From: Bacteroidetes bacterium HLUCCA01
GTDB taxonomy: Bacteria; Bacteroidota; Rhodothermia; Balneolales; HLUCCA01
DNA: 64,000 nt
Assembly (NCBI GenBank): GCA_001314545.1
Contig: LIHN01000005.1
Span: forward strand, 1-64,000
Reading direction: 5' to 3'
Under the pieces are notes generated by a model that was not told where the DNA came from, did no database searches, and was given only the letters and a program-made list of their open reading frames with translations. A program made the translations under genes and the position numbers. Positions within the stretch are counted from its first letter, which is position 1. Every line of letters starts with the position of its first letter. Shown here in pieces: positions 12,284 to 36,085 of this stretch.

Positions 12284-12454
12284 TGCAGTGCAAAGGGTCT
12301 GCGGCGTTCAGTTCCAAGGCACAGACAGCGTGAAGAGCTGGTTCAGCCGGGGCAGCAGCTTCAGTTTTACCCTGTCTGCAGGCCATCTGTGTAAACCTGA
12401 AATCCCGGCTCACCCAAAATTTTTTTGAAAAAAAATCACAGGTCTTTGGGGGAA

Positions 12455-12469
12455 AGCGCTTCCAGCGCT
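12455..12469 (+). promoter_or_regulatory. AGCGCT repeat next to fecR start
   Basis: AGCGCT at 12455-12460 and 12464-12469 flank TCC, within GGAAAGCGCTTCCAGCGCTG. The core AAGCGCTT is the same as in the two operators upstream of the amylase gene at 47.8 kb. It lies 13 nt before the FecR ATG, after an A/T tract (TTTTTTTGAAAAAAAAT). It could be an operator, part of a promoter or a leader hairpin; the sequence alone does not decide. Confidence 0.3.
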
Positions 12470-12482
12470 GTCTTAGTACCAT

Positions 12483-13556: not shown

Positions 13557-13795
13557 CACGATAGATTACCTGCTGGTGCATCGAACCCACCGCAGGCAGA
13601 AACAGACAACCGGGACGGCACTTTCCGAACCGGTTTAACATTGGATTTTTGAATCTTGGAAACTGATTGATGGGCGGAGTGTCCCAGGGCGCATCCGTCA
13701 TATGGCAGTTTCCCAATCTTGGATACACGAGGAAAAGGGCACGGTTGCCGTAAGGTGGCTGCTGCTGTAAGGGTCAACAAAACAAAGGTACGTCA

Positions 13796-17371: not shown

Positions 17372-17397
17372 GGTCAAGGTATAACGAGGTAAATATT

Positions 17398-18777
17398 ATG
17401 AAAGCAAAACTCACAGTTGTCATCCTTGCCTTTTTGGTAATGTCCTGCGGGGATGACTTCACCAATCTGGCACCGATATCGCAACGGAACGTTGACAACT
17501 TCTTTACGAATGCCAACGATTTCGAGCTGGCTGTAAATGGAGCCTACTCGGCGTTGCATCTGGATGGAATGTATTCTCAGAGTCTCTGGGTCATGTTTGA
17601 AATGCGTTCAGACAACACCGATCAGGGGCCTGATGTAACCGGTCTGGCCAATGAGCTGGCCGTGATTCACATTTTCAATGAAAATTCGCTGAACCAGTTC
17701 CTCGGCGACATGTACCGTGATCATTACGTACTGATCAGTCGAACCAACGTGATTCTGGATCGTCTTGGCGAGGTGACCATGAGCGATGCGCAGCGGGATC
17801 AGATTCAGGGGCAAGCCTTGTTCCTGCGCTCCCTGGCTTACTACAACCTGGCTATCGCTTTTGCCAATGTTCCGCTGATACTCAATGAAGTAACCGACAT
17901 TAACCAGTCGATTACCCAGAGTAACCGTCAGGCCATTCTGGAGCAGATTGCCGGGGACCTCTCCGCTGCCGAGGGGCTGCTGCCTGACTCCTGGCCTGCA
18001 TCACAGCAGGGCCGGGCTACCCGTGGTGCCGCGCTGGCACTGCTTGGCAAGGTGCACCTGATGCTGGGCAACAATGGTCAGGCAGAGACTGCGCTAAGAG
18101 CAGTCACCACCCTGGGTTACAGCCTGGTACCCGATTACGCCGACCTCTGGGGAGCTGGAAATGAAAACAACAGTGAGTCCATTTTTGAGGTACAATACCG
18201 CGCCGGCGGATTGGGTACCGGCTCGCCGTTTACCAACTACTTCTCACCGAGTCCGTTTCTGCAGAATGGTTTGGGCAATGCCCGTAACCGTCCTACCGAA
18301 AGCATGTGGGAGGCTTACGAGGCGGGTGATCTGCGACGTGACATTTCCATGGCCCGTACCTATGTGAATCCGAACACCAATGAAGTGGTTGAAGCCCTCC
18401 ACATTCTGAAATACCGAAGCGAGCCATTCCAGAACAATGATTCTGACGTCAACTGGCCCGTTCTTCGTTATGCCGATGTACTGCTGATGCTGGCCGAAGC
18501 CATCGGGGAGTCGCCCGAAGCCTATGGCTACATCAACCAGGTGCGTCAGCGCGCCGGTCTGCCCGATATTGATGCAAATACCCCCGGTACCTTTGCCGAC
18601 AAACTGCTGCAGGAGCGCCGGGTTGAACTGGCGTTTGAAAACCATCGATGGCCGGATCTGATCCGGTTCGACCGTGCTGAGCAGGCTATGCAGCAACTCG
18701 GGCTTACGGCCAGAATGCTGTTCCCGATTCCGCAGCGTGAAATTGACGTAACTCCGGGCTTCACCCAAAATCCCTGA
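17398..18777 (+). CDS. SusD/RagB-family nutrient-binding outer-membrane lipoprotein
   Basis: This 459-residue protein begins with a lipoprotein signal (MKAKLTVVILAFLVMSC, lipid Cys17) and carries the SusD pattern: NVDNFFTNANDFELAVNGAYSAL near the N-terminus, TPR-like helices (QGQALFLRSLAYYNLAIAFANVPLIL), RYADVLLMLAEA, and the C-terminal QERRVELAFENHRWPDLIRF and MLFPIPQREIDVTPGFTQNP. It forms the lid of the SusC transporter and captures substrate at the surface. It sits 26 nt after SusC in the same operon. Compared with many homologues it lacks the last GY of the usual QNPGY ending, a minor change. Confidence 0.95.
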   Translation: MKAKLTVVILAFLVMSCGDDFTNLAPISQRNVDNFFTNANDFELAVNGAYSALHLDGMYSQSLWVMFEMRSDNTDQGPDVTGLANELAVIHIFNENSLNQFLGDMYRDHYVLISRTNVILDRLGEVTMSDAQRDQIQGQALFLRSLAYYNLAIAFANVPLILNEVTDINQSITQSNRQAILEQIAGDLSAAEGLLPDSWPASQQGRATRGAALALLGKVHLMLGNNGQAETALRAVTTLGYSLVPDYADLWGAGNENNSESIFEVQYRAGGLGTGSPFTNYFSPSPFLQNGLGNARNRPTESMWEAYEAGDLRRDISMARTYVNPNTNEVVEALHILKYRSEPFQNNDSDVNWPVLRYADVLLMLAEAIGESPEAYGYINQVRQRAGLPDIDANTPGTFADKLLQERRVELAFENHRWPDLIRFDRAEQAMQQLGLTARMLFPIPQREIDVTPGFTQNP

Positions 18778-18802
18778 TCATCTTTCCCGCTCTGACTGAG
18801 CT

Positions 18803-18844
18803 CCGGAGGTCTGGACGTACCCGGTTCGGGCCTCCGGTTTTTTT
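18803..18844 (+). terminator. Rho-independent terminator after SusD
   Basis: CCGGAGG at 18803-18809 pairs with CCTCCGG at 18831-18837, followed directly by seven T residues. It lies 26 nt past the SusD stop and 25 nt before the PIG-L start, so it may tune expression of the downstream enzymes rather than isolate them fully. Confidence 0.75.
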
Positions 18845-18868
18845 AACCCCATAAAACCACTGCCAATC

Positions 18869-19777
18869 ATGAAGATAAACCTCTCCATAAGCTTGTTTGC
18901 TGCGATGCTGCTGCTTGCCTCGGCCTTCATGCCGAAGACGGTATCGGCTCAGGAAGACCGACCGCTGCGAATCATTGCCATTTTTGCCCACCCTGATGAT
19001 GCCGAAGCCAAGATGGGCGGAACCACCGCGCTCTGGGCTGCCATGGGCCACGAAATCAAGTATGTATCCCTTACAAACGGGGATCATGGTCACCATGAAA
19101 TGGGTGGCGGACCCCTGGCCAATCGCCGACGCGGCGAAGCCGTTGAAGCTGCCCGTCGACTGGGTGTGATGGAATACATCGTCTATGACAATCATGACGC
19201 TGAACTTATGCCCGAACTGCATATCCGTCAGAATATCATTCGTGAGATTCGTCGCTGGAACGCTGATATTGTTCTGGGTCTTCGCTCCAATGACTATCAC
19301 CCGGATCACCGGAATGCCGGGCTGCTGGTGATGGATACCGCCTATATGGTTATGGTACCCAACGTAGCACCCGATACACCACCACTGAAGCAAAATCCGG
19401 TCTATCTGTACATGCAGGATCGTTTTCAACGACCGTACCCGTTTCAGAATGACATCGTTGTAGCCATCGATGAGGTCATCGACCAAAAAATTGACGGTCT
19501 GGACGCTCACGATTCACAGATGTACGAGTGGCTCCCCTGGATTTCAGGGAACCTGGATGATGTACCTGAATCTGCCGAGGCCCGACGTGAGTGGCTCAGA
19601 CAACGCTGGGCACGGCCTAACGTAACGGCCTTGCACATGCCGGCTCTGGAGAAGTATTACGGTCCGGAAGTAGCCCGGGAAATTCGCTACGTTGAAGGTT
19701 TTGAAATCGCCGAGTACGGTCGACAGCCTTCCGAAGATGAAATTAGACGGTTGTTCCCCATGCTGGGTAACTTCTAA
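18869..19777 (+). CDS. PIG-L/LmbE-family deacetylase, secreted
   Basis: This 302-residue protein has a Sec signal (1-28, ASAFMPKTVSAQ). It carries the PIG-L metal site: IFAHPDDAEAKMGG (HPDD with catalytic Asp) near 41-54 and NDYHPDHRNAG near 148-158 supplying the second histidine. The family removes acetyl groups from N-acetylated sugars or related amides using zinc. It is encoded between SusD and a PcRGLX-like protein, so its target is probably an acetylated sugar taken up or processed at this locus; the specific substrate is inference. Terminators sit on both sides, suggesting graded or independent expression. Confidence 0.9.
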   Translation: MKINLSISLFAAMLLLASAFMPKTVSAQEDRPLRIIAIFAHPDDAEAKMGGTTALWAAMGHEIKYVSLTNGDHGHHEMGGGPLANRRRGEAVEAARRLGVMEYIVYDNHDAELMPELHIRQNIIREIRRWNADIVLGLRSNDYHPDHRNAGLLVMDTAYMVMVPNVAPDTPPLKQNPVYLYMQDRFQRPYPFQNDIVVAIDEVIDQKIDGLDAHDSQMYEWLPWISGNLDDVPESAEARREWLRQRWARPNVTALHMPALEKYYGPEVAREIRYVEGFEIAEYGRQPSEDEIRRLFPMLGNF

Positions 19778-19786
19778 ACTCCACAG

Positions 19787-19837
19787 GGTACCCGGTGCAT
19801 GAGCTGAAAGGCTGTGCCGGGTACCTTCTTATTTTTT
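19787..19837 (+). terminator. Rho-independent terminator after PIG-L gene
   Basis: GGTACCCGG at 19787-19795 pairs with CCGGGTACC at 19817-19825, followed by TTCTTATTTTTT. The hairpin covers the upstream ATG at 19814 in the ORF track, which argues for the later start at 19850 for the next gene. Confidence 0.72.
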
Positions 19838-19849
19838 AATTCAGGCTTC

Positions 19850-22693
19850 ATGACCCCAACCTCATCCCAATCCGCGGATCACATGGCTGATTCAATACCT
19901 TCCGGCCGTGTTTCACATCCCCACAACGCAGTCTGGCTCCCGGCATTCCTTCCAGCTTCACGGCCAGCATCGCGACCAAGCTCACGGTCAGCATCGGGGT
20001 CAACCCCGCGCCCGACCCCGCGGAATTATCGCAGCATATCCCTGTATCTGATCGGTTTATTCACTGTTCTAAGTCTGGTAGCCGCTGTGACGGCACCCGC
20101 TTTAGCACAGGAATCCGGCAGCGTGCCCCTCCACGTTGATGCGGTTCCGGGGAGTCCGGTCGTGCTTGGAGTTCCCTTTCCAAAGGGAGCACTCCACTCA
20201 CCGGATCATGTTCGGGTTGTTGGCTCCAACGGCGCTGAAATCCCATCGCAGATTACCGAAGTGTCAACCTGGGAGCCGTCTGACCGGAGCATCAAGTGGG
20301 TTTGGGTTTTCTTTTTTGCCGATGCGGCCGATGGGTATCGCCTTGAGTACGGTCCGGATGTTCGCCGTGAGGCCGCCTATGCCCACGGGATTATCATCAA
20401 AAACAACCAGCGACCGGCAGGCGGCATTGAAGTTACCACAGGACCGCTGCGAATTACGGTTGACAAGCGAACGGCCGGCGGATTTCTGGACCGTGTTGAG
20501 GTCAATCCCGATGCAGACGGATTTGGGGACGAACACCTGCTTGCCACCAGTCCGCTGGGACGGGGTTCCTTCCTGGATATGATTGATGATAACGGTCCGG
20601 ACTCGTCCCGCGCCGTCATCCAGCAGATTTTTGTAGACAAAGGAAGCGGTCCGCTGCATACCATCATCCGCATTGAAGGAGAGTACCAGTACAACCGCGC
20701 GGATAACCCCTCCTCGCCCTTTGTAACCCGCGTTCATGCCTATGCCGGCAGGAGCTACATCCGGGTATATCACAGCATTGTCTACACCGGAACTCCGGAT
20801 CGGAGTGAACCGCTGGGCGACCGCCAGCATCCTGCTGTGGCCACCCGCCTCGGACCGCTGGTTGACGAGCAGGCCCGCCTGGAAGATACCGGCATGACCG
20901 AACCGCTGGATATGATCATGGCTACCGGCTTTACCCTTTCACCGGCCTTTCGCGCAACCCAGATTGAAACAGGCTATTACGGTGGATCCTGGTGGAATCC
21001 CGGCGATGAGCAGGTTTACGCGGGAAATGCGGCCGCACGGGGTATAACATCCGTATTTCAGACCGGTCCGAAACCAACGGGTATCCCGCCGGTTCCCAAT
21101 GCCACAGCCGATGAGCGAATTGACGGCTTCCTGGGCACTATAACGGCCGGTTCCGGGGAGGTGCTGCAGGCGGAGCGACTCTCAGGATGGATGCACGTTA
21201 CCGATGGGGAGCGTGGAATCAGCATGGCTATCCGCAATTTTGTGGAGGAGTATCCCAAGGAGATTCAGGTGAACGCCGAAGACAGCCTGTTTACCGGCTA
21301 TTTCTGGTCGCCGGAGGCCGGTCCGATGAGCTTTGAGCGTGCCAATACCCGTCGCGATGGCGACATGGTAGGCAATTTTGCCACAGGCATTGCCAAGACC
21401 ACCGAACTGAGTTACTATTTTCATACCGCCGAACCGAATCGCGATGCGTTAGACCAGGCTCATGCACTGGTTCTCGATGCACCCGCTGCCCACGCAGAAC
21501 CCTCGTGGTACGGAACATCCGGTGTATTTGGACCGATGGCTCCGGCCAGCGAAAAATACGCGGCCTACGAACGGGGGCTCTCCTACAAATTCGACTGGTT
21601 TCTGTTTAATCAGAAGTGGGAGCCCTGGTATGGCATGTTTTATTTCGGCGATGGGATGACCAATTATTACAACGACGACTGGTTCATGTGGGGCATCAAC
21701 GAGCCCGCACAGGATGCGATGTGGTGGTATCAGTTCATCCGAACCGGTGATTCCAGATTCTACCATGCAGCCCAGCATATGAGTCGGCACTCCATGGACG
21801 TCGGTAACATACACTGGCCCGTTAAACCACGGTACCGGGGCGACACCAACCTGACCATCGACTGGTTTGAGCATGAAGCCCTCCCGGAAACCAGTCCCTA
21901 TGTGGGTATGGGCCGGCGGCACGGTTCCCAACCCTGGGTCTCCGTCCTGTCAGCCCACGTCTGGACGCCCGGCTGGGTTATGTCGTACTATCTGGACGGC
22001 TACCACCGCGGGTTGGACATCGCCCGATTGACCGCAGATCACATCTCCGGAAGACACTGGGGAGAGCACGATTACCGCGGAAGGCGTTTGTACCTGGGGA
22101 TTTTCAACATGGCGGCTGTGTACGATGCTACCAAAGACCCGCGCTATTATGACGAATTGCGCTACCGCATTGATAAGGCCCTTGCGCTGCAGGCAACCGA
22201 CGGATGGTCGCTGAACATCGATCGTTATGGGTATTCCCAGATCTACAATTCCCACGGCCTGATGCAGTACTACTCCATCACCGGTGATGAAAATGTTGCC
22301 CGGGCGATGGTTCGCCATGCCCGCAGAGTGCGTGATGTGCAACCCTACGATCATGATTACGAGTCGTATCTGGCCAGTATCCACAGTTTGCTCATGGGTT
22401 ATGAGCTGAGTGGTGAGCGAAGTCTGCTGGACAGAGCGCTTGAACGCGCTCAATATTTGAAAACCGGACAGCTTGGACCGGTTGATCCGATGCAAATCAC
22501 GCAACGCTCGTACGCTGCTATGCTTGAAGAAGCCAGCAATCTGCCCGGATTTGACGAAGGCCGGGTTCACCCGTTTTTTGGCACGCGACCTATCTGGTCT
22601 ATTACCAATGGGTTACGGGTTTTTGGCTGGACCCATGCCTACAACGTGCCCTGGCTGGTGCACTACCTCGAGAAATACAACATCGATCCCTGA
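19850..22693 (+). CDS. PcRGLX/YetA-like protein (putative PL26-type exo-rhamnogalacturonan lyase)
   Basis: I begin at ATG 19850 (947 residues) because 19814 lies inside a terminator. Residues 1-60 are Ser/Arg/Pro-rich and repetitive, then a signal-anchor-like hydrophobic stretch ends ALAQES near 88. The mature part opens with a RIFT-barrel-like domain (VVLGVPFPKGAL, IPSQITEVSTWE, RSIKWVWVFFFA). A beta-rich middle domain follows, then an alpha/alpha-toroid region with WYGMFYFGDGMTNYYNDDW, GINEPAQDAMWWYQFIRTGD and RHSMDVGNIHW. This order matches PcRGLX/YetA-type exo-rhamnogalacturonan lyases (PL26), which cleave rhamnogalacturonan from its end. Family-level similarity is my recognition; the substrate is not proved. 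Alternative starts exist at 19883 and nearer the hydrophobic segment. Confidence 0.72.
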   Translation: MTPTSSQSADHMADSIPSGRVSHPHNAVWLPAFLPASRPASRPSSRSASGSTPRPTPRNYRSISLYLIGLFTVLSLVAAVTAPALAQESGSVPLHVDAVPGSPVVLGVPFPKGALHSPDHVRVVGSNGAEIPSQITEVSTWEPSDRSIKWVWVFFFADAADGYRLEYGPDVRREAAYAHGIIIKNNQRPAGGIEVTTGPLRITVDKRTAGGFLDRVEVNPDADGFGDEHLLATSPLGRGSFLDMIDDNGPDSSRAVIQQIFVDKGSGPLHTIIRIEGEYQYNRADNPSSPFVTRVHAYAGRSYIRVYHSIVYTGTPDRSEPLGDRQHPAVATRLGPLVDEQARLEDTGMTEPLDMIMATGFTLSPAFRATQIETGYYGGSWWNPGDEQVYAGNAAARGITSVFQTGPKPTGIPPVPNATADERIDGFLGTITAGSGEVLQAERLSGWMHVTDGERGISMAIRNFVEEYPKEIQVNAEDSLFTGYFWSPEAGPMSFERANTRRDGDMVGNFATGIAKTTELSYYFHTAEPNRDALDQAHALVLDAPAAHAEPSWYGTSGVFGPMAPASEKYAAYERGLSYKFDWFLFNQKWEPWYGMFYFGDGMTNYYNDDWFMWGINEPAQDAMWWYQFIRTGDSRFYHAAQHMSRHSMDVGNIHWPVKPRYRGDTNLTIDWFEHEALPETSPYVGMGRRHGSQPWVSVLSAHVWTPGWVMSYYLDGYHRGLDIARLTADHISGRHWGEHDYRGRRLYLGIFNMAAVYDATKDPRYYDELRYRIDKALALQATDGWSLNIDRYGYSQIYNSHGLMQYYSITGDENVARAMVRHARRVRDVQPYDHDYESYLASIHSLLMGYELSGERSLLDRALERAQYLKTGQLGPVDPMQITQRSYAAMLEEASNLPGFDEGRVHPFFGTRPIWSITNGLRVFGWTHAYNVPWLVHYLEKYNIDP

Positions 22694-24975: not shown

Positions 24976-26421
24976 ATGAACAGTACACATAGTGGTCCGT
25001 TAAGTTCACCGCAGGATCATACATTCCGTATCATTTTATTGTCGTCCGTAGCCGCAATCGGCGGATTTCTGTTCGGGTTTGACAGTGGGGTTATCAATGG
25101 TACGGTAGATGCCCTGCGCGGCGCTTTTGATTCGGATGCCGTGGGAACCGGCTTCAATGTGGCTTCCATGTTGCTGGGTTGTGCGGCCGGCGCTTTTTTT
25201 GCCGGAACCCTGGCCGATCAGTATGGTCGGCGTACCATCATGTTTGCGGCAGCCTTATTTTTTATGGTGAGTGCCTGGGGATCCGGCATTGCCGCTACAT
25301 CGGCGCAGTTTGTCCTGTTCCGTATCATCGGTGGCTTTGCCGTTGGCGCGGCCAGTATCCTTACTCCGGCCTATATCTCTGAAATTGCACCATCCCGCAT
25401 GCGGGGTCGGCTGGCCACCTTGCAGCAGCTGGCCATCGTCATCGGTCTTTTTGTTGCTTTTCTGAGTAACTACCTGATTGCCAATGCCTCCGGAGGCGCC
25501 TCGGAACCATTCTGGGGTGGATTTCAGGCCTGGCAATGGATGTTCTGGATGGAAATTTTTCCTGCAGCCCTGTTTTTCGTATTACTCTTCCTCATTCCGG
25601 AGTCGCCCCGGTATCTGGTTTCAGCAGGACGGATCGATGAAGCCACAGCCGTGCTGAAAAGCCTTTCACACGCCGATGATGCCGATAAAAAAGTGGCTGA
25701 TATTCTCACAACGGTTACGGCCGACCGTAAGCCAAGGCTCTCCGACATCATGAATCGGGTCAAAGGCGGGGTGCATCCCATTGTCTGGGTTGGGGTTGCC
25801 CTGGCTATTTTGCAGCAGTTCACCGGTATCAACGTGGTCTTCTACTACGGTGCAACCCTGTGGCAGGCCGCTGGATTCACCGAAGGCGATGCCCTTCTGG
25901 TCAATGTAATCAGCGGAGCGGTGAACATATCCTTCACCTTCGTAGCCATTGCCCTGGTCGATAAAATAGGCCGCAAACCCCTGCTTCTGGTGGGGTCGCT
26001 CGGTCAGGCCGTCATGCTGGGTATTCTGGCCTTGTTTTTCGGGACAGCAACCCTCGGGGAGTCGGGCAATCTTATTCTGGAAGGCAACAACGGAATTTAT
26101 GCCCTGTTGGCCGCCAATGCCTACATCGCCTTTTTTGCCTTTTCCTGGGGACCGGTAATGTGGGTTATGCTCGGCGAGATGTTCCCGAACCAGTTCCGTG
26201 GCGCCGCTCTGGCCGTCTGCGGAATTGCCCAATGGGGCGCCAATTTTGCCATTACCATGAGCTTCCCGGTGCTGCTGGCCTCCATAGGACTCGGATTTTC
26301 CTACGGAATCTATGCTTTCTTCGGCGTTATCGCCTATTTCTTCGTGAAACGCTTTGTGGATGAAACCCGCGGGAAGACGCTGGAAGAGCTTTCCAGGGAT
26401 ATCATGGGGAAGGTCGAATAA
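24976..26421 (+). CDS. MFS sugar porter family transporter
   Basis: This 481-residue protein has 12 predicted membrane helices and the sugar-porter signatures: GGFLFGFDSGVINGT in helix 1, DQYGRRT in loop 2-3, PESPRYLV after helix 6, QQFTGINVVFYYGATLW in helix 7, DKIGRKPLLLVGS in loop 8-9 and RGAALAV late in the protein. It resembles XylE/GlcP/AraE proton or sodium-coupled monosaccharide transporters. An AGGAG sequence lies upstream of the ATG. It is followed on the same strand, 48 nt on, by the glycosyltransferase and phosphorylase genes, so it may supply or recycle sugar for the osmolyte cluster. Confidence 0.93.
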   Translation: MNSTHSGPLSSPQDHTFRIILLSSVAAIGGFLFGFDSGVINGTVDALRGAFDSDAVGTGFNVASMLLGCAAGAFFAGTLADQYGRRTIMFAAALFFMVSAWGSGIAATSAQFVLFRIIGGFAVGAASILTPAYISEIAPSRMRGRLATLQQLAIVIGLFVAFLSNYLIANASGGASEPFWGGFQAWQWMFWMEIFPAALFFVLLFLIPESPRYLVSAGRIDEATAVLKSLSHADDADKKVADILTTVTADRKPRLSDIMNRVKGGVHPIVWVGVALAILQQFTGINVVFYYGATLWQAAGFTEGDALLVNVISGAVNISFTFVAIALVDKIGRKPLLLVGSLGQAVMLGILALFFGTATLGESGNLILEGNNGIYALLAANAYIAFFAFSWGPVMWVMLGEMFPNQFRGAALAVCGIAQWGANFAITMSFPVLLASIGLGFSYGIYAFFGVIAYFFVKRFVDETRGKTLEELSRDIMGKVE

Positions 26422-26469: not shown

Positions 26470-27738
26470 ATGGTTTTAGAGAACGAACGAATCGGATTTG
26501 TCTCCACGCGATTCGCCGGTACAGACGGCGTATCGCTGGAGGCAGCCAAATGGGCTGAAGTCCTTGAATCAGACGGGCACGAGATCTTCTGGTATGCCGG
26601 TCGGCTCAACCGGCCGCGCGAGAACAGCATGTGTATACCCATCGCACACTTTGAGCATCCGGAAATTGAATGGCTGAACCGACAAATCTGGGGGCATACC
26701 AAGCGCTCACCGGCGGTTTCCAAACGTATCCGGAGCATATCGGATTATCTGAAGGAAACGCTGCACGACTTTGTGCGGCAATTTGATATCACCCTGCTGA
26801 TTATTGAGAACGCCGTCACCATTCCCATGAACCTGCCACTGGGTGTGGCGTTGACCGAATTTCTACTGGAATCGGAGATCCCGGCTATTGCCCATCACCA
26901 CGATTTCTACTGGGAGCGCAGCCGGTTTTCCGTCAACTGCGTGGGCGATTACCTCGCTATGGCCTTCCCCCCGCGTGATCCCGAATTGCAGCACGTGGTT
27001 ATCAACAAAAACGCCGCAGATGCCCTGGCCTGGCGTAAGGGAGCATCCTCCATTTTAATTCCCAATGTGCTGGATTTCGATAACGCTCCGGATCCGGCCG
27101 GCGATACCTACACCGAGGGACTCAAGGAAGCGCTGGGATTTGAACCTGATGACATCATTTTTCTGCAACCCACCCGCGTTGTCCCCCGCAAGGGCATCGA
27201 ACACGCCATCCGGCTGGTCAATATGCTGGGGAACCCCAAAATCAAGCTGTGTGTCTCCCACGATTCCGGCGACGAAGGCTTTGCCTACGAAAAAATGCTG
27301 CGGGAATCGGCCGAGCATGAGGGGGTAGACCTGCGCTTTGTAAGTACCCGGGTGGGCGATGAGCGCCAGGTTGACGATGACGGTATCAAGATTTACTCCC
27401 TCTGGGACATGTACCCCATCACCGACCTCGTAACCTATCCGAGTCTGTACGAGGGCTTCGGCAATGCGTTTCTGGAGGCGGTCTATTACCGCAAACCCCT
27501 GTTGGTCAACCGGTACGATATTTATATGCGTGATATTGAACCCAAAGGGTTTCAGACGGTGACCATTCAGGGATATGTAGCCCCCGAAACCGTCCGCGAT
27601 GTCAAAAAACTTCTGGATAACCCCGATTTAATCGACGCCATGACGGAGCGCAACTACGAGCTGGCCAAACAATATTTCAGCTATACCGTGCTGCGCAAAA
27701 AGCTGCGCTTCATCCTGAACACCATCCGCGGTTACTAA
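26470..27738 (+). CDS. GT4-type glycosyltransferase, likely mannosylglucosylglycerate pathway
   Basis: This 422-residue protein has the GT-B two-domain form. The N-terminal half begins with IGFVSTRFAGTDGVSLEAAKWAE and contains AIAHHHDFYWER. The C-terminal nucleotide-sugar domain has FLQPTRVVPRKGIEHAIRL and the EX7E region YPSLYEGFGNAFLEAVYYRKP. It lies 94 nt ahead of a GH13_18 phosphorylase and faces a convergent operon with glucosyl-3-phosphoglycerate synthase. In organisms that make mannosylglucosylglycerate, a GT4-like enzyme adds a sugar to glucosylglycerate or its phosphate. That role is inferred from context; donor and acceptor are not visible in the sequence. Confidence 0.8.
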   Translation: MVLENERIGFVSTRFAGTDGVSLEAAKWAEVLESDGHEIFWYAGRLNRPRENSMCIPIAHFEHPEIEWLNRQIWGHTKRSPAVSKRIRSISDYLKETLHDFVRQFDITLLIIENAVTIPMNLPLGVALTEFLLESEIPAIAHHHDFYWERSRFSVNCVGDYLAMAFPPRDPELQHVVINKNAADALAWRKGASSILIPNVLDFDNAPDPAGDTYTEGLKEALGFEPDDIIFLQPTRVVPRKGIEHAIRLVNMLGNPKIKLCVSHDSGDEGFAYEKMLRESAEHEGVDLRFVSTRVGDERQVDDDGIKIYSLWDMYPITDLVTYPSLYEGFGNAFLEAVYYRKPLLVNRYDIYMRDIEPKGFQTVTIQGYVAPETVRDVKKLLDNPDLIDAMTERNYELAKQYFSYTVLRKKLRFILNTIRGY

Positions 27739-27832
27739 GCCGCCGTGTACTCCCGATTATTGCCCCCGACGCACATGGTCGGGGCGCATCCATCCGTCAT
27801 TACATACCATTTTCAACCCTGAACAATCTGTT

Positions 27833-29590
27833 ATGACCGTTCCAAACATCACCAACATCATGCTCCAGCTGCACTCCCGCTTTGAATACCTCTACGGTTC
27901 GCAAGCCGACGCCTGCATGAAACGCTTCCAAATGATGATTGGCCGATACGGCATCGACACCTCCTACCAATCCACATTTCAGGTACTCGCAGACGGAACC
28001 CAGCCCGCCCGTGGCTGGTCGTCTGCCGACAGTATCCTGATCACCTACGGCGACTCCATCGTGCAGGAAGGCGAAGCCCCCCTGGAAACCCTGCGCTCGT
28101 TCATGATGCAACGGGTGGGCAAAACCATCACCGGCATCCACATATTGCCGTTTTTCCCCTACACCTCCGATGACGGCTTCTCCGTTCAGAATTACCACGA
28201 AGTTCGTGAAGACCTCGGCGGGTGGATGCATATTCGCAGACTCGCACGGGAATACCGTGTCATGGGCGATGTGGTCATCAATCACGTATCTGCCCAAAGC
28301 AACTGGTTCCGTGATTTCAAAAAAGGGATAGCTCCCGCGCGCGATTACTTTCACGTGACGGAGCCCTCGCCCGCGCTCGACCAGGTAACCCGTCCGCGGA
28401 ACCTGCCCCTGCTCACCCCGGTGAAAACCCCGATGGGTCCGGTCCACGTCTGGACCACCTTCAGTCCTGATCAGATCGATCTGAACTTCGCCAACCCCGA
28501 CGTGCTTTTTGAATTTCTGGACATCATCCTGCTGTATATCTCCCAGGGTGTGAGCGTACTGCGACTAGACGCCATCGCCTACCTCTGGAAACGCGTCGGT
28601 ACCAACTGCATCCACCTTCCGGAGACCCACGAAGTGGTCAAACTCATCCGCAATGTACTGGATCTGCTGGCCCCTCACGTGACCATTATCACCGAAACGA
28701 ACGTTCCGCATGCCGAGAATGTCAGCTATTTCGGTACCGGGGATGAAGCCCACATGGTGTATCAATTCAGCCTCCCTCCGCTGCTGCTGCATGCCCTGCT
28801 GCGCGGCAATGCGCGGTGGCTGACGCAATGGGCAGCAGGACTGCAGCCTGCCCCGGATGGGTGTGCGTATTTCAATTTTACCTCCTCCCATGACGGTGTG
28901 GGAGTACGACCGCTCGAGGGACTGGTGCCCACTGAAGAATTCGAGTACCTGGTCAACGCCGTACTCCGCCGCAACGGTCGGGTCTCCAATAAGAAAAATC
29001 CGGACGGATCGGAGAGTCCGTACGAACTCAACATAACCTACTACGACGCTCTGGCCTGCGAAGGCGGCACCGATGATGGGCATCAGACCGACCGGTTTCT
29101 GTGCTCTCAGGCCATCATGCTCAGTCTCCAGGGAGTTCCCGGTATCTACATCCACGCCCTGACCGGCAGTAAAAATGACCTTGAAGGCCTCGCCTGTAAG
29201 GGCTATAATCGTGCCATCAACCGTAAACAGTGGCAGCGTCGACATCTGGAGCATGCCCTTGATGATGAAAACACCTCCACCGGACAGGTGTTCGACCGGT
29301 ACCTGCATCTGCTTAAAATCCGATCAGCCCAGCCGGCTTTTGATCCAGCCGCTGAGCAGAAGGTATTGGATCTGGGCGATGCACTTTTTGCCCATATCCG
29401 GTCTTCCGAGGAAGGAACCTTGCTTTGTTTGTTCAATGTGACCGATGCCCGGGTGGATGTACATGTGCATGCCGCCCTGCCCGAAGCGCACCGTAAAGAG
29501 GCCTATCGTGATGTGATATCCGGCGATATCCGCGGTCGCGACGGACATGTAACGCTGGCTCCGTACGATGTGGTCTGGCTGAAGGTGTGA
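27833..29590 (+). CDS. GH13_18 sugar phosphorylase (sucrose-phosphorylase-like, probably glucosylglycerate phosphorylase)
   Basis: This 585-residue cytoplasmic enzyme shows all GH13 regions: GDVVINHVSAQSNWF (region I), VSVLRLDAIAYLWK (nucleophile Asp, region II), TIITETNVPHAEN (acid/base Glu, region III) and NFTSSHDGVGVRP (region IV). RLDAIAYLWK and SDDGFSVQNYHEV are typical of the sucrose-phosphorylase subfamily 18, which reversibly releases glucose-1-phosphate. This subfamily contains sucrose, sucrose-6-phosphate and glucosylglycerate phosphorylases. The convergent glucosyl-3-phosphoglycerate synthase operon makes glucosylglycerate phosphorylase the best guess, used to recover carbon and lower osmolyte on salt downshift. 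Substrate choice is inference; the fold call is firm. Confidence 0.87.
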   Translation: MTVPNITNIMLQLHSRFEYLYGSQADACMKRFQMMIGRYGIDTSYQSTFQVLADGTQPARGWSSADSILITYGDSIVQEGEAPLETLRSFMMQRVGKTITGIHILPFFPYTSDDGFSVQNYHEVREDLGGWMHIRRLAREYRVMGDVVINHVSAQSNWFRDFKKGIAPARDYFHVTEPSPALDQVTRPRNLPLLTPVKTPMGPVHVWTTFSPDQIDLNFANPDVLFEFLDIILLYISQGVSVLRLDAIAYLWKRVGTNCIHLPETHEVVKLIRNVLDLLAPHVTIITETNVPHAENVSYFGTGDEAHMVYQFSLPPLLLHALLRGNARWLTQWAAGLQPAPDGCAYFNFTSSHDGVGVRPLEGLVPTEEFEYLVNAVLRRNGRVSNKKNPDGSESPYELNITYYDALACEGGTDDGHQTDRFLCSQAIMLSLQGVPGIYIHALTGSKNDLEGLACKGYNRAINRKQWQRRHLEHALDDENTSTGQVFDRYLHLLKIRSAQPAFDPAAEQKVLDLGDALFAHIRSSEEGTLLCLFNVTDARVDVHVHAALPEAHRKEAYRDVISGDIRGRDGHVTLAPYDVVWLKV

Positions 29591-29609
29591 CCCCACGCGG
29601 AAATCTGCC

Positions 29610-29755
29610 TTGCAGCCCTGACCGCAATACGCATATTCAGCAATCAGGAAAACCAGCTTAACCATTGCGCCGCCGCAGGCCTTGTAGCCCTGACCGCAAT
29701 ACGCATCTTCGGCTATCTGGAAAACCAGCTTAACCATTGTGCCGCCACAAGCCGT
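29610..29755. repeat. 72-bp tandem duplication in gene gap
   Basis: Two copies of a 72-bp unit (with AGCCCTGACCGCAATACGCAT at 29614 and again at 29686) lie directly downstream of the phosphorylase gene, with a few substitutions and a partial third start near 29754. The shared GGAAAACCAGCTTAACCATTG closes each unit. No coding function is apparent, and it sits between convergent operons. Confidence 0.8.
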
Positions 29756-29820
29756 GCAGCCGGATTGAGATGCCGGGCAGCATCGACAGCCATCCGTCAG
29801 GAGATCAGGGCCTCAGTCGC

Positions 29821-30717
29821 TCACAAAATGCCCAGGCATTGAATAGCCTGGGTGAGATGGGTGAAAACCGCGTCTGGTCGATGGTCACGGATAGCAGCAT
29901 TGTCTTCGTGCAGGCGCAACGACTGCTGGTCGCCGGCAAAAAGTGCGGCATTAAAACCGACCAGCATCGCCGCATGTACATCCTTGAGCAGGTCGTTGCC
30001 GATGTACAATACCTGAGAGGGCGCAATGCCCCGTTTGGCCAAACCTTCGGCCGCCATGGTATACAGATAGTGAGAGGGTTTGGCCGCCTTGCATTCGTAG
30101 GAGTAGAAGCAAAGGTCGGGATCAAACCCCATTTCCGGAACCGATTTACCCGACAGAGCCTCTAGCGTCAGCGGGGTGTAAAACTGGGAGTTGGAGATAA
30201 TTCCAAGGGCGATGTCGGTGTCGTTGAGTGTCTCCAGCAGCTCATCCAGACCGGGCATGAGCCAGGGCTGTTCCACCCGCGTCACGAATTCGACAATCAG
30301 CCGGGGAATCAGGTCCGGATCAATATCCTGAAGGGTGGGCAAGTTCTTCCAGATTTCGATGATATCCACCTCCGGAAAATCGATTTCCCGGGTTTTGCGT
30401 TGCTCCAGATGATCAGTGCGGATGTTTCTGTACAGGTCTGACATGGTCCGACTCGCATTCACCGAGGCCGGATGAAACCCGATGCTTTTTAGGGCATCAA
30501 CGAGGGATTGCCGTTCATGGGCGGTGTTGCTGGTCAGCCCCGGCTCGTTGCCGGTAATCAGAATGGTACCGTACACGTCCACCATTACCGCTTTGATTTG
30601 CTTTGCGATGGGTATAATGGGCGTCATACCGGTGGGGATGGGTTGCCGGGGCGACGTGAGTTTACGTATGCGTTCAATCAGAAATGCGTTGTCTTCAGGC
30701 GATATTGGGGTAGACAT
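29821..30717 (-). CDS. HAD-superfamily hydrolase, candidate glucosyl-3-phosphoglycerate phosphatase
   Basis: The track ORF begins at 31173 inside the upstream gene; ATG 30717 gives a sensible 298-residue protein (MSTPISPEDNAFLIERIRKL). HAD motif I is KAVMVDVYGTIL with nucleophile Asp47. Motif II is GIISNSQF, then CKAAKPSHYLY (motif III Lys), and motif IV is VLYIGNDLLKDVHAAM. Position 49 is Tyr rather than the usual phosphatase Asp, a pattern shared with haloacid dehalogenase-type members. It is the last gene of the operon with glucosyl-3-phosphoglycerate synthase, which needs a phosphatase to yield glucosylglycerate. That role is a context inference, tempered by the Tyr. Confidence 0.78.
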   Translation of the reverse strand: MSTPISPEDNAFLIERIRKLTSPRQPIPTGMTPIIPIAKQIKAVMVDVYGTILITGNEPGLTSNTAHERQSLVDALKSIGFHPASVNASRTMSDLYRNIRTDHLEQRKTREIDFPEVDIIEIWKNLPTLQDIDPDLIPRLIVEFVTRVEQPWLMPGLDELLETLNDTDIALGIISNSQFYTPLTLEALSGKSVPEMGFDPDLCFYSYECKAAKPSHYLYTMAAEGLAKRGIAPSQVLYIGNDLLKDVHAAMLVGFNAALFAGDQQSLRLHEDNAAIRDHRPDAVFTHLTQAIQCLGIL

Positions 30718-30886
30718 TACGTGCTTTTTTAGATGAATTTCGGCTTTAAGGGTACGTAAGGCGTGTCTTTCGGAGGTGGATTTGACGCAGGAGTGTGCCA
30801 GGCAGGGAACCGGCCCGCAGCAGGACTCCTCTTTCCGCCAAAGCCCGGAGCAGCGACTTCCCGGATGGGTTGCTGACGGGAACCGT

Positions 30887-32812
30887 TCAAACCGACACCC
30901 GCTGTAGGGTGAACTGTTCCGGTTTGAGAAACTGCCCCAAAAGATCAGCCCCCGAAATGTAGTGAACTTCCTGAACCGGCGCGAGTACAACAGCGCGATA
31001 CAGTTCCTGAATTTTTTGGAGGTGGGTATCGGGCGAATACGCCTGCAGCACCACCGATCGGTTGGATGCGATGATGTCAGCTGCAGGGTGTACCTTGTCG
31101 GACCGGTTGACACCGCTGAAATCCGCACCCTCCTTAACGATTTCATGGGAGGGTTCGACGATGCGTATGCCAACGGACTCCCCGTCGATACGGTCCTTTT
31201 CGGTGCGGGTGGGCCCCTCAGGTTCTTCCAGCCAGGGTATTGGCAGGGGAGTGTTTTTGACTGTTTCGGGGTGGGTTAAAACATAGGTAATGACTTCGCG
31301 CTGACTGTCATCGTCAAGTACGCCGAAATCGATGGTATCTCCGGTGAAGAGGGTCTGCATCCACCTGGAGGTCGCCGCCGCTGCATCCTGCCGGGAGAAC
31401 CCGTAGTCGCGAAGCAGCTTGTTGATGGCCGACTCCAGCTTCCTGCCCAGCCGTTCGGTGTCCAGCCAGTGCAGCGGAACCATGGCGCGGGTATACATGC
31501 CCGGAAACTGCACCCCGCTGTCACTGAAATCGCGGGTGATATCGGGCAGTAACCGACCTGCGAGGGGTTTTCCGGCCAGCCAGGGTTCCAGATAAACCAT
31601 GCCGAAACCCTCGGCCATGCTGCTGGTAAACACGCAGGTTGCGGTCTGAACCAGTTCTGGGAAGCTGCGTCCGAGATGCACGCCGGCCTCAAACAAGACC
31701 GGTAAGCGGTGGTCGGCGCAGAAGGTGGTCCAGCGGGAATAATGCTCGCGATAAGCCGGGTTTTTGGGCGGGAGGGTGGCGGCCCAGAGGGTTTTGCCGG
31801 GCGACTGCAGCTGGGATATGGCCGACCATAGCACCATTTCGCCGATGTTCTTGCGGGGGATTACCCGCACGGGGTACAGAATCAGATGCTCTGGCAGGCT
31901 GGTGGAGCGGGTCGGAGCGGCGGTCGCACCGGCCCCGGCTGCTTGAACCATTGCAGAGCGGGCGGTCGAAGCAGCCTCATGGGTGCCGGTACCGGGCTGC
32001 GGATCGGAATGCTGCCCGGCCCCCGGAACGGGATGTGGCCCGGGTCCCGGTTTGAGCCCAGAGTCGGCCCCGGATTTGGCACCGGCAGCGTCCGCGGCCG
32101 GATTCTCGACCGGATTGGGGAGCAGCTGCAGTTGGGCAGCGGGAAAGCCGGCGCCTTTCAGGTTGGCGTAATCGCGTCCGTTCAACACGGCGTAGTGTAC
32201 ATGGGGGCCGGTCGGATAACACAGTTCATGCAACGGGCGATTGCTGATGCGTAACCCCGATTGCTGAATTCCCCGGTAGTTGTGGGGTCGGTTGTCTTCG
32301 GCAAAATCGTGAATATGCAGCAGCAGCTTCCTGCCCTGCTCCGCCATCATCGCCACCATAGCCGTTACAACCGGGTTTTTCCCCAGCGCGTGGTTATGAA
32401 TATGCCAGACGGCGGGTCTTCCGCCCATGGCCCGTTCAGCGGCGTCGTCCAGCCGGGACAGCAGGGTCTGCGGGTCGTTATGGGCTGTCAGCTCCCTGCC
32501 CCCGAAATGAGCCGAACCCGACTTTTCAGCCGCATCTGAAAGGCGGGGGGCTGGCTGCTTTAAGGAGGTGTTCGCCGCAGAATCAGGCGTATGGTTTACA
32601 TCGCGCTTGCCTGGTGTGGTATCGGAAGCATAGCCCAGACCCGGAACGCAGACCACCTCCGCCGGAAAGTCGTCCGGACCCTCCTCGCCCGAAAAAACCG
32701 TTACCGCTATTCCCGCCCGACCGAGCAGCACGCACTGCTGGCGGATGATCTGGGTGACCCCGCCACCGCGCAGATGGTGGTGCACCATGGCTACAGACAA
32801 GGTCATCGGCAT
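30887..32812 (-). CDS. Second GT4-type glycosyltransferase, with long low-complexity inserts
   Basis: This 641-residue GT-B protein starts MPMTLSVAMVHHHLRGGGVTQI (the ATG six nt further in is an alternative). N-terminal domain signs are WHIHNHALGKNPVV and LLLHIHDFAEDNRPHNYRG; C-terminal signs are LYPVRVIPRKNIGEMVL and FTSSMAEGFGMVYLEPWLAGKP. Two segments, about 62-110 and 240-312, are Ala/Gly/Pro/Ser-rich and look inserted. A C-terminal extension of about 120 residues follows the catalytic part. The start overlaps the GpgS stop by one base (TGATG), implying coupling. It probably acts on glucosyl-3-phosphoglycerate or its product; the exact reaction is unknown. Confidence 0.78.
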   Translation of the reverse strand: MPMTLSVAMVHHHLRGGGVTQIIRQQCVLLGRAGIAVTVFSGEEGPDDFPAEVVCVPGLGYASDTTPGKRDVNHTPDSAANTSLKQPAPRLSDAAEKSGSAHFGGRELTAHNDPQTLLSRLDDAAERAMGGRPAVWHIHNHALGKNPVVTAMVAMMAEQGRKLLLHIHDFAEDNRPHNYRGIQQSGLRISNRPLHELCYPTGPHVHYAVLNGRDYANLKGAGFPAAQLQLLPNPVENPAADAAGAKSGADSGLKPGPGPHPVPGAGQHSDPQPGTGTHEAASTARSAMVQAAGAGATAAPTRSTSLPEHLILYPVRVIPRKNIGEMVLWSAISQLQSPGKTLWAATLPPKNPAYREHYSRWTTFCADHRLPVLFEAGVHLGRSFPELVQTATCVFTSSMAEGFGMVYLEPWLAGKPLAGRLLPDITRDFSDSGVQFPGMYTRAMVPLHWLDTERLGRKLESAINKLLRDYGFSRQDAAAATSRWMQTLFTGDTIDFGVLDDDSQREVITYVLTHPETVKNTPLPIPWLEEPEGPTRTEKDRIDGESVGIRIVEPSHEIVKEGADFSGVNRSDKVHPAADIIASNRSVVLQAYSPDTHLQKIQELYRAVVLAPVQEVHYISGADLLGQFLKPEQFTLQRVSV

Positions 32813-33801
32813 CAGCTCAACCCGAATTTCTCCCGGTATTCCGGTATGGTAATCATCGGCGGACGTTCATCTTCCACTATGAAATGCTCTACCTGCTCGA
32901 AGGAGCCTTTGCTTACCTGAAACTGCCGCAGGTAATGGTTCAGTTCGGTTTGTACCAGCAGTTTTTCATGGTCGCCGGCCCTGCGCAGGAAGGTCTGCAG
33001 GATACCGAAGGCCATGCGACCGAGGGCCTGGGTGGGTTGGTTGCGATGTACCCGCTTGTCAAGATCGGTCTGGGCAAAAGCTTCCATCCCGTATTTTTTG
33101 TAGATGTCGATGAGGTGGCTGGTTTCCACACCGTACCCGATGGGGAAGGGGATGTCATGCAGGATATGGCGCCGCACGGCGTACTCGCCGGACAAGGGCT
33201 GAATGACGGCGGCCAGCTCCGGATAGAACAGGGAGAAAATGGGCCGGGTAAGGATTTCGGTAACCCGACCTCCGCCGGAAGGACGTACGATGCCGGTGTC
33301 TGACAGGGGCCGGTCATAGAAGGCCTTCACATAGCCTACTTCCGGCCGGTAAATCATCGGACCAATCAGCCCGTAGATGAACCGGGGGTGGATGTTGGTG
33401 ATGTCGGCATCTACATATACGATGATATCGCCTTTCAGCTGATAGATGGCCTTCCACAGGTTTTCGCCTTTGCCGCGTTTAGACTCCAGGTGGGGCAGGA
33501 TATCGCTGGCCAGGTAGGTGTCGGCACCGAACTCGGCGGCAACCTCGAGGGTTCGGTCTTCCGAGCCGGAGTCTATGACCGCGATTTCATCGATCAGCGG
33601 GTAGCGGTCTATGAGTTCCGAGCGGAAGAGCACCACTTCCTTGGCGATGTTGTTTTCTTCATTCAGGGTAGGAATGCACAGGGAGATGGTCAGACCGTGC
33701 CGTTCTTTTTCCTCTACCATTTTGCGAAGGTCCCAGAAATCGCTGTGGTGGTAGGTGTTTTTTTTGAGCCAGGTTTCAATGTTCTTCACAATGTCCTCCA
33801 T
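32812..33801 (-). CDS. gpgS: Glucosyl-3-phosphoglycerate synthase (GT81)
   Basis: This 329-residue protein matches GpgS along its length. The GT-A nucleotide-binding start is ISLCIPTLNEENNIA (about 39-53) and the strand-end motif is AVIDSGSEDRT (74-84). The metal-binding motif DAD is at 131-133 in IVYVDADI. The family-specific segments are SGGGRVTEILTRP near 176-188, LSGEYAVRR and PFPIGYGVETSHLID, with a late HRNQP. It transfers glucose from a nucleotide sugar to 3-phosphoglycerate, the first step to glucosylglycerate, an osmolyte (and a methylglucose polysaccharide precursor in mycobacteria). It overlaps the M20-like gene upstream by 26 nt and the GT4 gene downstream by 1 nt, so they form one operon. 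Confidence 0.92.
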   Translation of the reverse strand: MEDIVKNIETWLKKNTYHHSDFWDLRKMVEEKERHGLTISLCIPTLNEENNIAKEVVLFRSELIDRYPLIDEIAVIDSGSEDRTLEVAAEFGADTYLASDILPHLESKRGKGENLWKAIYQLKGDIIVYVDADITNIHPRFIYGLIGPMIYRPEVGYVKAFYDRPLSDTGIVRPSGGGRVTEILTRPIFSLFYPELAAVIQPLSGEYAVRRHILHDIPFPIGYGVETSHLIDIYKKYGMEAFAQTDLDKRVHRNQPTQALGRMAFGILQTFLRRAGDHEKLLVQTELNHYLRQFQVSKGSFEQVEHFIVEDERPPMITIPEYREKFGLS

Positions 33802-34969
33802 CTATTGCCATGAGTACAGACAGCAGTTTGGCCAGTCCGAGGTGAATTTTTCCGGGGTCAATGGTTTCATCGTCCATCTGCAGGTTGCTGCCGGTGGTCA
33901 TGCCCAGGGTCAGTGCCGGGATGCCGCGGTCAATAAAGGCGGCCAGATCGGAGGTGCTGGGTTCGTAGCGGGGCTTGATCTGCAGGGCATCGAAGATATC
34001 GCGGGAGGCACGAACCAGGGGATGTCCGAAGGAGATGCCGCCGGGCTGCCGGGTGGAGAATATGTCGATGGTGATATCATCGCCGGTTTTTGAGGCGACT
34101 TCAGATACGGCTTCTTTGAGGCGAAGCTCAATTTCGCGCACAATCCCGGCCGACTCCGAGCGTGCTTCGAAGCCCAGTCTGGCTTTGGTGGCGCGTTTGT
34201 TCATGGCCGCACCGGCACGAACCTGTCCCAGTATGATGCTGGAGCGGGGTCGGCGTGGCAGCGGAATGTCGGTAATCTTGTTGATGATTTCATTGAGGGT
34301 CAGAATGGCGCTGGTATTGCCGAATCCGTTCCAGTCCAGCTCCTCCGGAGTCCGTACTAGTACTTCACCCCGGATGATACCGATGGAGGCATGGCTGAGC
34401 CGGTCGAGCTGCACGCCTTCGACGCAGACCCCGGCATGCACGGGCAGTTTGTAGTTGCTCAGGAAGGAGCGGAGTCCTTCGGAGTTGCCCCTGCCCAGAC
34501 TCCGGGCGGTGCCAATCAGGATGAGGTTGTTTTTCAGGCGGATGTTCAGGCGGTTGAGCAGGTCGGGCAGGGAGGCGACCACCGCCAGACCAAGGCTGTT
34601 GTCGGCAACGCCTGCGCCGGTGACCAGGCCCGGCTGCACGGAGATGGTATGGTCGGTACTGTCGGGGTAGACCGTGTCCATGTGTGCCGATACGGCAATA
34701 TTGCGTTTGCCCTCGCTTCCATGCAAAACACCGAAAATATTCGATTTATCGTCGTTTTCAACATTCTGCAGACCGACTTCACTGAACCGGTTGATCAGCA
34801 GCTGCATGCGGCGTTCTTCCCCGAACGTGGGCGCGGGTGTTTCGCCCAGCAGGATGAGATTCGCCAAAACGAACTGCTGCAGCGGTTTTAGCTCCTCGGC
34901 CAGTCCGACCGCTCCGTTGAGAATATCCTGGAAATTTTCCCAGCTTCTAGTTCCTAATACATCGTTCAT
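33776..34969 (-). CDS. M20-family peptidase homologue with lost catalytic residues
   Basis: The reading becomes protein-like from ATG 34969 (MNDVLGTRSWENF), giving 397 residues. The M20/M42 fold is visible: AVSAHMDTVYP with His96 and Asp98, TGAGVADNSLG with bridging Asp123, and a possible ligand Glu in CVEG. However, the segment that normally reads EE-x-G has become IGTARSLGRGNSEG, so the catalytic glutamate pair is absent. The final HxxxE histidine is also replaced (TTGSNLQMDDETID). It is the first gene of the GpgS operon. A non-peptidase role, such as a regulatory or scaffolding partner or an altered hydrolase, is likely, but nothing in the sequence says which. Confidence 0.78.
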   Translation of the reverse strand: MNDVLGTRSWENFQDILNGAVGLAEELKPLQQFVLANLILLGETPAPTFGEERRMQLLINRFSEVGLQNVENDDKSNIFGVLHGSEGKRNIAVSAHMDTVYPDSTDHTISVQPGLVTGAGVADNSLGLAVVASLPDLLNRLNIRLKNNLILIGTARSLGRGNSEGLRSFLSNYKLPVHAGVCVEGVQLDRLSHASIGIIRGEVLVRTPEELDWNGFGNTSAILTLNEIINKITDIPLPRRPRSSIILGQVRAGAAMNKRATKARLGFEARSESAGIVREIELRLKEAVSEVASKTGDDITIDIFSTRQPGGISFGHPLVRASRDIFDALQIKPRYEPSTSDLAAFIDRGIPALTLGMTTGSNLQMDDETIDPGKIHLGLAKLLSVLMAIDGGHCEEH

Positions 34970-35185: not shown

Positions 35186-36085
35186 ATGCCGCACATCGCC
35201 CTGCTGACTGATTCCCGCTATGTAGCTGCCACGGCCGCTGCAGACGATTGGTACCATGCCAATATCCTTCACGATGACGCGCTTTTGCAGCAGGCCCTGC
35301 TGCGTCACAACGTTTCCTGCACCCGGGTAGACTGGGCCGATCCTGCCGTAGACTGGTCCGCATTCGATCTGGCTGTTTTTCGCACTACCTGGGACTACTA
35401 CGAAAAATTCGAGGCATTCTCCGCCTGGCTGCATCGTACCGAAAAGCTCCTGCCGCTGTGCAACCTGCCCGAAATCATCCGCTGGAATATGGATAAACAT
35501 TATTTGCGGGACCTTCACGATGGCGGTGTTCCGGTGGTGCCGTTTCGGTTTATTGAAAAAGGAACATCACCTGACCTCGGAAAACTGCTGGAGGAAACCG
35601 GCTGGAAGCAGGCGGTTATCAAACCCTGTGTTTCCGGCGGTGCGCGACTCACCTACCGGGTGGATGCGGGCTCCAGTGCCGCTGTTGCCCAAAAGGTAGC
35701 GCCATGGCTGGAAAAAGAGGCCTTCATCCTGCAACCGTATATCGCATCGGTAGAAACCACCGGCGAGGATTCGCTCATGGTTTTGGGTGGCACGTACAGT
35801 CACGCCGTACGGAAGATTCCCCGGCAGGGCGATTTCCGGGTGCAGGACGACCATGGAGGGACGGTGCATCCGCGTCAACCGGATGATAGGCAGAAAGTAC
35901 TGGCGGAGCGAGCGATGGTCGCCTGCACGGCAACACCGGTGTATGGTCGCGCTGATATGGTGCAGATGCCTGACGGGTCCTGGGCCATCATGGAACTCGA
36001 ACTGCTGGAGCCGGAGTTGTGGATACGGTATCATCCTGAAAGCGCCCTTCTTTTTGCTGAAGCTATGCGTAAGTTCTTTTTTTAG
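35186..36085 (+). CDS. ATP-grasp (RimK-like) ligase
   Basis: This 299-residue protein has an N-terminal pre-ATP-grasp region (IALLTDSRYVAATAAADDW, FDLAVFRTTWDYYEKFEAFSAWL) and an ATP-grasp domain. The domain has AVIKPCVSGGARLTY (phosphate loop and Lys), EKEAFILQPYI, the arginine/metal strand GGTYSHAVRKIP, and PDGSWAIMELELLEPELWI as metal-binding Glu. It is close to a group of stand-alone ATP-grasp proteins that includes DcsG-like enzymes, which join an amino or hydroxy group to a carboxylate with ATP. The substrate is not known. It is divergent from the M20-like gene and 38 nt ahead of a response regulator on the same strand, which may be a chance neighbour. Confidence 0.85.
   Translation: MPHIALLTDSRYVAATAAADDWYHANILHDDALLQQALLRHNVSCTRVDWADPAVDWSAFDLAVFRTTWDYYEKFEAFSAWLHRTEKLLPLCNLPEIIRWNMDKHYLRDLHDGGVPVVPFRFIEKGTSPDLGKLLEETGWKQAVIKPCVSGGARLTYRVDAGSSAAVAQKVAPWLEKEAFILQPYIASVETTGEDSLMVLGGTYSHAVRKIPRQGDFRVQDDHGGTVHPRQPDDRQKVLAERAMVACTATPVYGRADMVQMPDGSWAIMELELLEPELWIRYHPESALLFAEAMRKFFF

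Follow-up and report, generated by a model that had tools for sequence, protein, structure and literature searches.

A conserved two-operon cassette, probably for a glucosylglycerate-derived solute, in Bacteroidetes bacterium HLUCCA01 and its M20-like protein without a catalytic Glu pair

The window analysed here is the whole stretch of 64,000 nucleotides at positions 1 to 64,000 of contig LIHN01000005.1 from Bacteroidetes bacterium HLUCCA01 (assembly GCA_001314545.1). At 26470-34969 it carries two convergent operons, with two genes on the plus strand and four on the minus strand, which we describe as a putative cassette for a glucosylglycerate-type solute. On the plus strand a GT4 glycosyltransferase gene (GT4a) is followed by the gene of a GH13_18 phosphorylase. 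The minus-strand operon runs in the order M20-like protein, GpgS, a second GT4 (GT4b) and HAD protein, and its first three genes overlap. A preliminary description of this DNA had reported convergent operons with GpgS, a HAD phosphatase candidate, two GT4 enzymes and a GH13_18 phosphorylase, and all of these genes are found where it placed them. Its list of five genes was right but missed a sixth within the same region, that of the M20-like protein, which overlaps gpgS and has its likely ATG start at position 34969. The six genes are:

26470..27738, plus strand: GT4a, a retaining GT4 glycosyltransferase and MggS homologue (NF041101, 234 bits, full length)
27833..29590, plus strand: GH13_18 phosphorylase of the glucosylglycerate phosphorylase (GGaP) type (TETN at beta-5, loop A SPYELN, 42% identity to YcjM)
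29821..30717, minus strand: HAD family IA protein with DxYGT for DxDGT, presumed pathway phosphatase (Pfam HAD matches on P0004)
30887..32812, minus strand: GT4b, a fast-evolving GT-B/GT4 glycosyltransferase with three low-complexity insertions (AlphaFold model and Foldseek; conserved E401...E409)
32812..33801, minus strand: GpgS, glucosyl-3-phosphoglycerate synthase of the GT81 type (NF010496, 383 bits against a cut-off of 262)
33776..34969, minus strand: pseudo-M20 protein, M20/M28 fold with the catalytic Glu pair lost (AlphaFold2 pLDDT 91.5; overlaps gpgS by 26 bp)

The same six genes stand in identical convergent order in one further genome of the genus and in one genome from another family of the same taxonomic order, and GT4a is 90, 73 and 72% identical to its copies in the genomes G002, G053 and G311. 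Within the phylum GT4a is present in only 4 of 395 sampled genomes; the cassette is thus sparse and has probably spread laterally. A scan with a GT4a alignment recovered at least 581 relatives in public genomes. Linkage was counted in the loci of the best 80 of these, picked by GT4a similarity, and the ratios describe that set only. GT4a adjoins the GH13 gene in all 71 loci having both and the M20-like gene adjoins GpgS in 39/39 loci, while GT4b lies next to the HAD gene in 31 of 32 and GpgS next to GT4b in 31 of 33; no seventh conserved neighbour was found in the 80 loci. The commonest full form is divergent, with HAD-GT4b-GpgS-M20 running leftwards and GT4a-GH13 rightwards. Two deltaproteobacterial loci have all six genes on one strand, and the convergent form was seen only within the taxonomic order of the window. 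Full or near-full cassettes occur in Verrucomicrobiota, Kiritimatiellota, Lentisphaerae, Planctomycetota, Omnitrophota, Deltaproteobacteria and Bacteroidetes/Rhodothermia, and the cassette is found in at least six named phyla, mainly Verrucomicrobiota, Kiritimatiellota and Planctomycetota. The GT4, HAD and M20 families are common, and one could suppose that ordinary carbohydrate genes have come together here by chance and that a pathway reading over-interprets them. We regard this as very improbable, because the six genes recur in the same order in relatives and stay linked in different arrangements in several phyla, with constant neighbour pairs and overlapping genes. Plasmid-borne copies of GT4b were not found, and for GpgS the plasmid matches were only of actinobacterial type or weak. 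Deviating arrangements were also observed. A Verrucomicrobiia genome (L057, 9965-14276) has two GT4a-type genes flanking one GH13 gene, an apparent GT4a duplication. In Gracilimonas mengyeensis a GT4a-GH13 pair (L022/L024) stands without the other operon beside it, and its GpgS and M20-like genes sit side by side on a different contig (L103, L144).

Two members of the cassette are readily placed in known families. GpgS scores above the curated cut-off of its family (NF010496/PRK13915, GT81), aligns over about 270 residues with actinobacterial GpgS structures (4Y6N, 4DDZ, 3F1Y) and shares with solved GpgS the motifs GKGE, DxD (VDADI) and an HRN(Q/R)P-type motif (HRNQP). By family score and motifs it is predicted to act as a glucosyl-3-phosphoglycerate synthase. 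For GGaP, (T/S)ETN at the tip of beta-5 and a Glu in loop A have been described as diagnostic, and both are shared by the known enzymes, such as YcjM of E. coli and GGaP of Meiothermus silvanus (PMC7178133), and the window GH13_18 protein (P0003), with ITETN and the loop-A Glu of SPYELN. TETN is present in 65 of the 69 cassette GH13 members and PYE in nearly all. The identity to YcjM extends over 529 residues. The loop A motif of sucrose phosphorylases, N(L/V)D(I/L/V)YQ, is absent from the protein, which reaches 202 bits with TIGR03852 against a cut-off of 334. A sucrose phosphorylase was therefore rejected on motif and YcjM similarity, and the sequence comparison fits the role in glucosylglycerate recycling that had been proposed for this gene, with a predicted activity of the GGaP type. 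A difference from known GGaP is the constant GT4a neighbour of the cassette gene.

The two glycosyltransferases are unlike in sequence. GT4a has mannosylglucosylglycerate synthase (NF041101) as its best family and is homologous over its full length to MggS of Petrotoga and Thermotoga, from which it is set apart as a separate subfamily (234 bits against a cut-off of 640). Only GT4a matches NF041101 strongly. GT4b is the fastest-evolving protein of the set, with 43% identity within the genus compared to 90% for GT4a, and measures 641 residues in the window compared to about 490-540 in its nearest relatives. It has three low-complexity, probably disordered insertions (residues 66-107, 250-303 and 557-574), and its E401...E409 motif is conserved. 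The AlphaFold model of GT4b (pLDDT 82) has a GT-B fold, with GlgM, sucrose-phosphate synthase and MshA as the nearest Foldseek neighbours at about 11% identity. The acceptors of these three enzymes are small and phosphorylated, a possible hint for GT4b that is suggestive only.

The HAD protein has the hallmarks of its superfamily, an Asp nucleophile and the motifs II (S/T), III (K) and IV (GND...D). Invariant are D47, Y49, G50 and T51 in motif I as well as S175, K213, GND240-242 and D246, so that motifs II-IV are intact. Motif I itself reads DxYGT in 33/33 aligned members, compared to the usual DxDGT. LHPP, a weak match to the HAD protein, has Ser in place of the second Asp. LHPP is one of some HAD phosphatases that are active without the second Asp; by this analogy the DxYGT protein may still be the phosphatase of the pathway. 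Its earlier naming as a HAD phosphatase candidate thus holds as to the family and the other motifs, but the usual second Asp is missing.

The GpgS step is found in two versions. Twelve GT4a genomes have no GT81 GpgS, and in 11 of these a GpgS of the NF040724 type was found, with scores of about 290-365 bits that lie below that family's own strict cut-off. In the Planctomycetota sample the base rate of this type is 19/199; strictly, this can be compared with the seven planctomycetes alone, and six of them have it. In five planctomycetes the alternative gene (GpgS') lies directly behind the GH13 gene, in the single-operon form GT4b-HAD-GT4a-GH13-GpgS'. A GpgS-free variant of the cassette in planctomycetes was rejected, since the NF040724-type enzyme accounts for the missing GT81 GpgS. 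Thus, a change of enzyme leaves the GpgS step of the pathway in place.

The M20-like protein is the most unusual member of the cassette. Its fold is kept: Foldseek matches the catalytic and lid domains of the confident AlphaFold2 model to PahZ2, a poly(aspartic acid) hydrolase of family M20 (7LJH; E 2.8e-34, TM 0.75), which is also the best sequence match (177 bits). PahZ2 has the catalytic Glu pair, which supplies the general base and one ligand of the zinc, and the C-terminal His, whereas the cassette family has lost the pair and mostly the His. None of 41 aligned members has a Glu in the two catalytic columns, which hold mostly Ser-Leu, and the pair is missing in seven further copies as well. 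The C-terminal His ligand is present in 9/41 members and lost in 32/41. In the lid His column mostly Tyr or Leu is found. The family thus departs from M20 metallopeptidases in both the Glu pair and the C-terminal His ligand. The ligands of the first metal site are mostly retained (His 35/41, Asp 41/41, Glu/Asp 41/41), as are most lid Asn/Arg positions, and the protein could on this evidence still be an enzyme that uses one metal and a changed chemistry, for example acyl or aminoacyl release from the product, which would be compatible with a solute pathway. We consider such an enzyme unlikely in view of the loss of the catalytic Glu and of the second Glu ligand throughout the family, besides the frequent loss of the His residues. 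In addition, the gene keeps company with GpgS rather than with the other cassette genes, as would be expected of a partner more than of an enzyme acting later in the pathway. The M20-like protein occurs in 7/7 genomes with a GT81 GpgS, always adjacent to it, even where the pair sits away from GT4a, while it was found in none of the five genomes (0/5) with the other GpgS type, nor in two genomes with neither; these genomes are related to differing degrees, and the counts are uncorrected for kinship. This co-occurrence indicates that the protein goes with the GT81 GpgS rather than with the entire pathway. When distances are correlated between the cassette proteins, every pair scores high (0.73-0.90), and M20-GpgS does not stand out. 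From the lost residues and the linkage we infer that the protein is a non-catalytic partner of GpgS, acting in stability, regulation or as a scaffold. With a likelihood that we put at slightly less than even, the dead peptidase fold has become a dedicated GpgS subunit or regulator. It would be needed for, or tune, the first committed osmolyte step in several phyla, and would be lost where another type of GpgS takes over.

Taken together, we think that the cassette very probably makes and recycles a protective solute of the glucosylglycerate type. This is supported by a GpgS above its cut-off, the GGaP signature, MggS as best family of GT4a and the linkage across phyla. Somewhat less firmly, we favour the view that the two operons form a laterally mobile cassette for a charged compatible solute derived from glucosylglycerate, and that mannosylglucosylglycerate (MGG) or a closely related compound is its most likely product. 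In the following scheme, where all reactions, the sequence of the GT4 steps, the donors and the part played by the M20-like protein are inferred, the minus-strand operon would provide a phosphorylated route. GpgS would join glucose to 3-phosphoglycerate, with the catalytically dead M20-fold protein as its dedicated non-enzymatic partner, GT4b would glycosylate the phosphorylated intermediate and the DxYGT HAD protein would strip the phosphate. The plus-strand operon would serve an unphosphorylated route and turnover. Here glucosylglycerate or its product would receive a sugar from GT4a, probably mannose donated by GDP-mannose, and the GH13_18 enzyme would use phosphate to cleave glucosylglycerate into glucose-1-phosphate and glycerate, which a glycerate 2-kinase would return to glycolysis. 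The genome encodes a GDP-mannose pyrophosphorylase homologue and a glycerate-2-kinase family gene.

Several points weigh against this assignment. GT4a remains far below the MggS equivalog cut-off, so that its donor and acceptor are not fixed. GT4b matched no family above cut-off in the profile search and could be assigned no function, the HAD protein is without the general acid/base Asp of DxDx(T/V) phosphatases, and in the 80 loci neither a transporter nor an osmotic regulator is conserved alongside the six genes. The product might also be a different one. The two GT4 genes are co-conserved in many cassettes and their proteins are dissimilar, and GT4b and GT4a acting in succession could yield glycerate carrying three sugars, in whose recycling the GGaP-type enzyme would take part. 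The presence of two GT4 enzymes had indeed been taken to suggest a longer product. While the proposed make, extend and recycle system is supported in outline by signatures and linkage, we rate an extension beyond MGG as possible but rather improbable. Petrotoga uses two GT4 enzymes, MggA and MggS, to make the same MGG by phosphorylated and unphosphorylated routes; hence two such enzymes need not mean a longer product. The planctomycete Rhodopirellula baltica, in which the cassette was not looked for, is likewise reported with MGG and not with a longer glycoside (PMC3694870). A further thought is that the cassette makes a polysaccharide primed by glucosylglycerate instead of a free osmolyte, since GpgS also catalyses the first step of the mycobacterial methylglucose lipopolysaccharide pathway, a GT4 would be available for chain extension and GlgM is among the fold neighbours of GT4b. 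This seems quite improbable to us. Linked methyltransferases, an acyltransferase and glucan extension or branching enzymes, as they mark the mycobacterial pathway, are not conserved with the cassette in the 80 loci, unlinked genes not having been searched for, and the presence of a GGaP, which degrades free glucosylglycerate, is easier to reconcile with a soluble pool.

An MFS sugar porter (24976..26421, plus strand; TIGR00879, 394 bits) ends 48 bp upstream of GT4a. The preliminary description had linked it to the system, and it does lie on the same strand, but it falls outside the six-gene region and is a lineage-specific neighbour. It was rejected as a component because it is not beside the cassette in G002 and G053 and no seventh neighbour is conserved. 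On the other side, an ATP-grasp protein gene (35186-36085), related to the D-cycloserine synthetase DcsG (199 bits, cut-off 360), points away from the M20-like gene in divergent orientation. An apparent polysaccharide utilisation locus (11723-22693) immediately precedes the transporters and the cassette and has an ECF sigma factor, a FecR anti-sigma factor, a SusC/SusD pair, a PIG-L deacetylase and a PcRGLX-like protein of 959 amino acids. The window further encodes an AbiEi/AbiEii toxin-antitoxin pair at its start (445-1966), in a stretch of low G+C content (about 41%), and a secreted alpha-amylase with CBM25/CBM53 modules and a Por secretion tail (45018-47768).

In its core the pathway belongs to a known kind. 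The MGG enzymes of R. baltica, reportedly named GpgS, MggA and MggB, are said to have been characterised. Compared by steps, that route shares with the cassette the start from glucosyl-3-phosphoglycerate, a second glycosyltransferase and a phosphatase, whereas the window uses a GT81 GpgS with a pseudo-M20 partner. From actinobacterial GpgS, in turn, the window gene differs in being overlapped by a pseudo-M20 gene. MGG builds up in R. baltica, and strongly so when nitrogen is limiting in the presence of salt (PMC3694870). No published description of the cassette was found in the literature that could be searched, in which the conserved set of six genes, the link of the pseudo-peptidase with GpgS and the exchange of one GpgS type for another appear to be undescribed. 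So far, reports of MGG come from two Petrotoga species and a single planctomycete. Through this cassette, the range of glucosylglycerate-type solutes would grow to include many Verrucomicrobiota, Kiritimatiellota and Deltaproteobacteria and some Balneolales, and the cassette offers a concrete gene set for testing. If the pseudo-peptidase is a partner of GpgS, a dead enzyme fold has been put to an unusual use here, which suggests an unknown control of the pathway.

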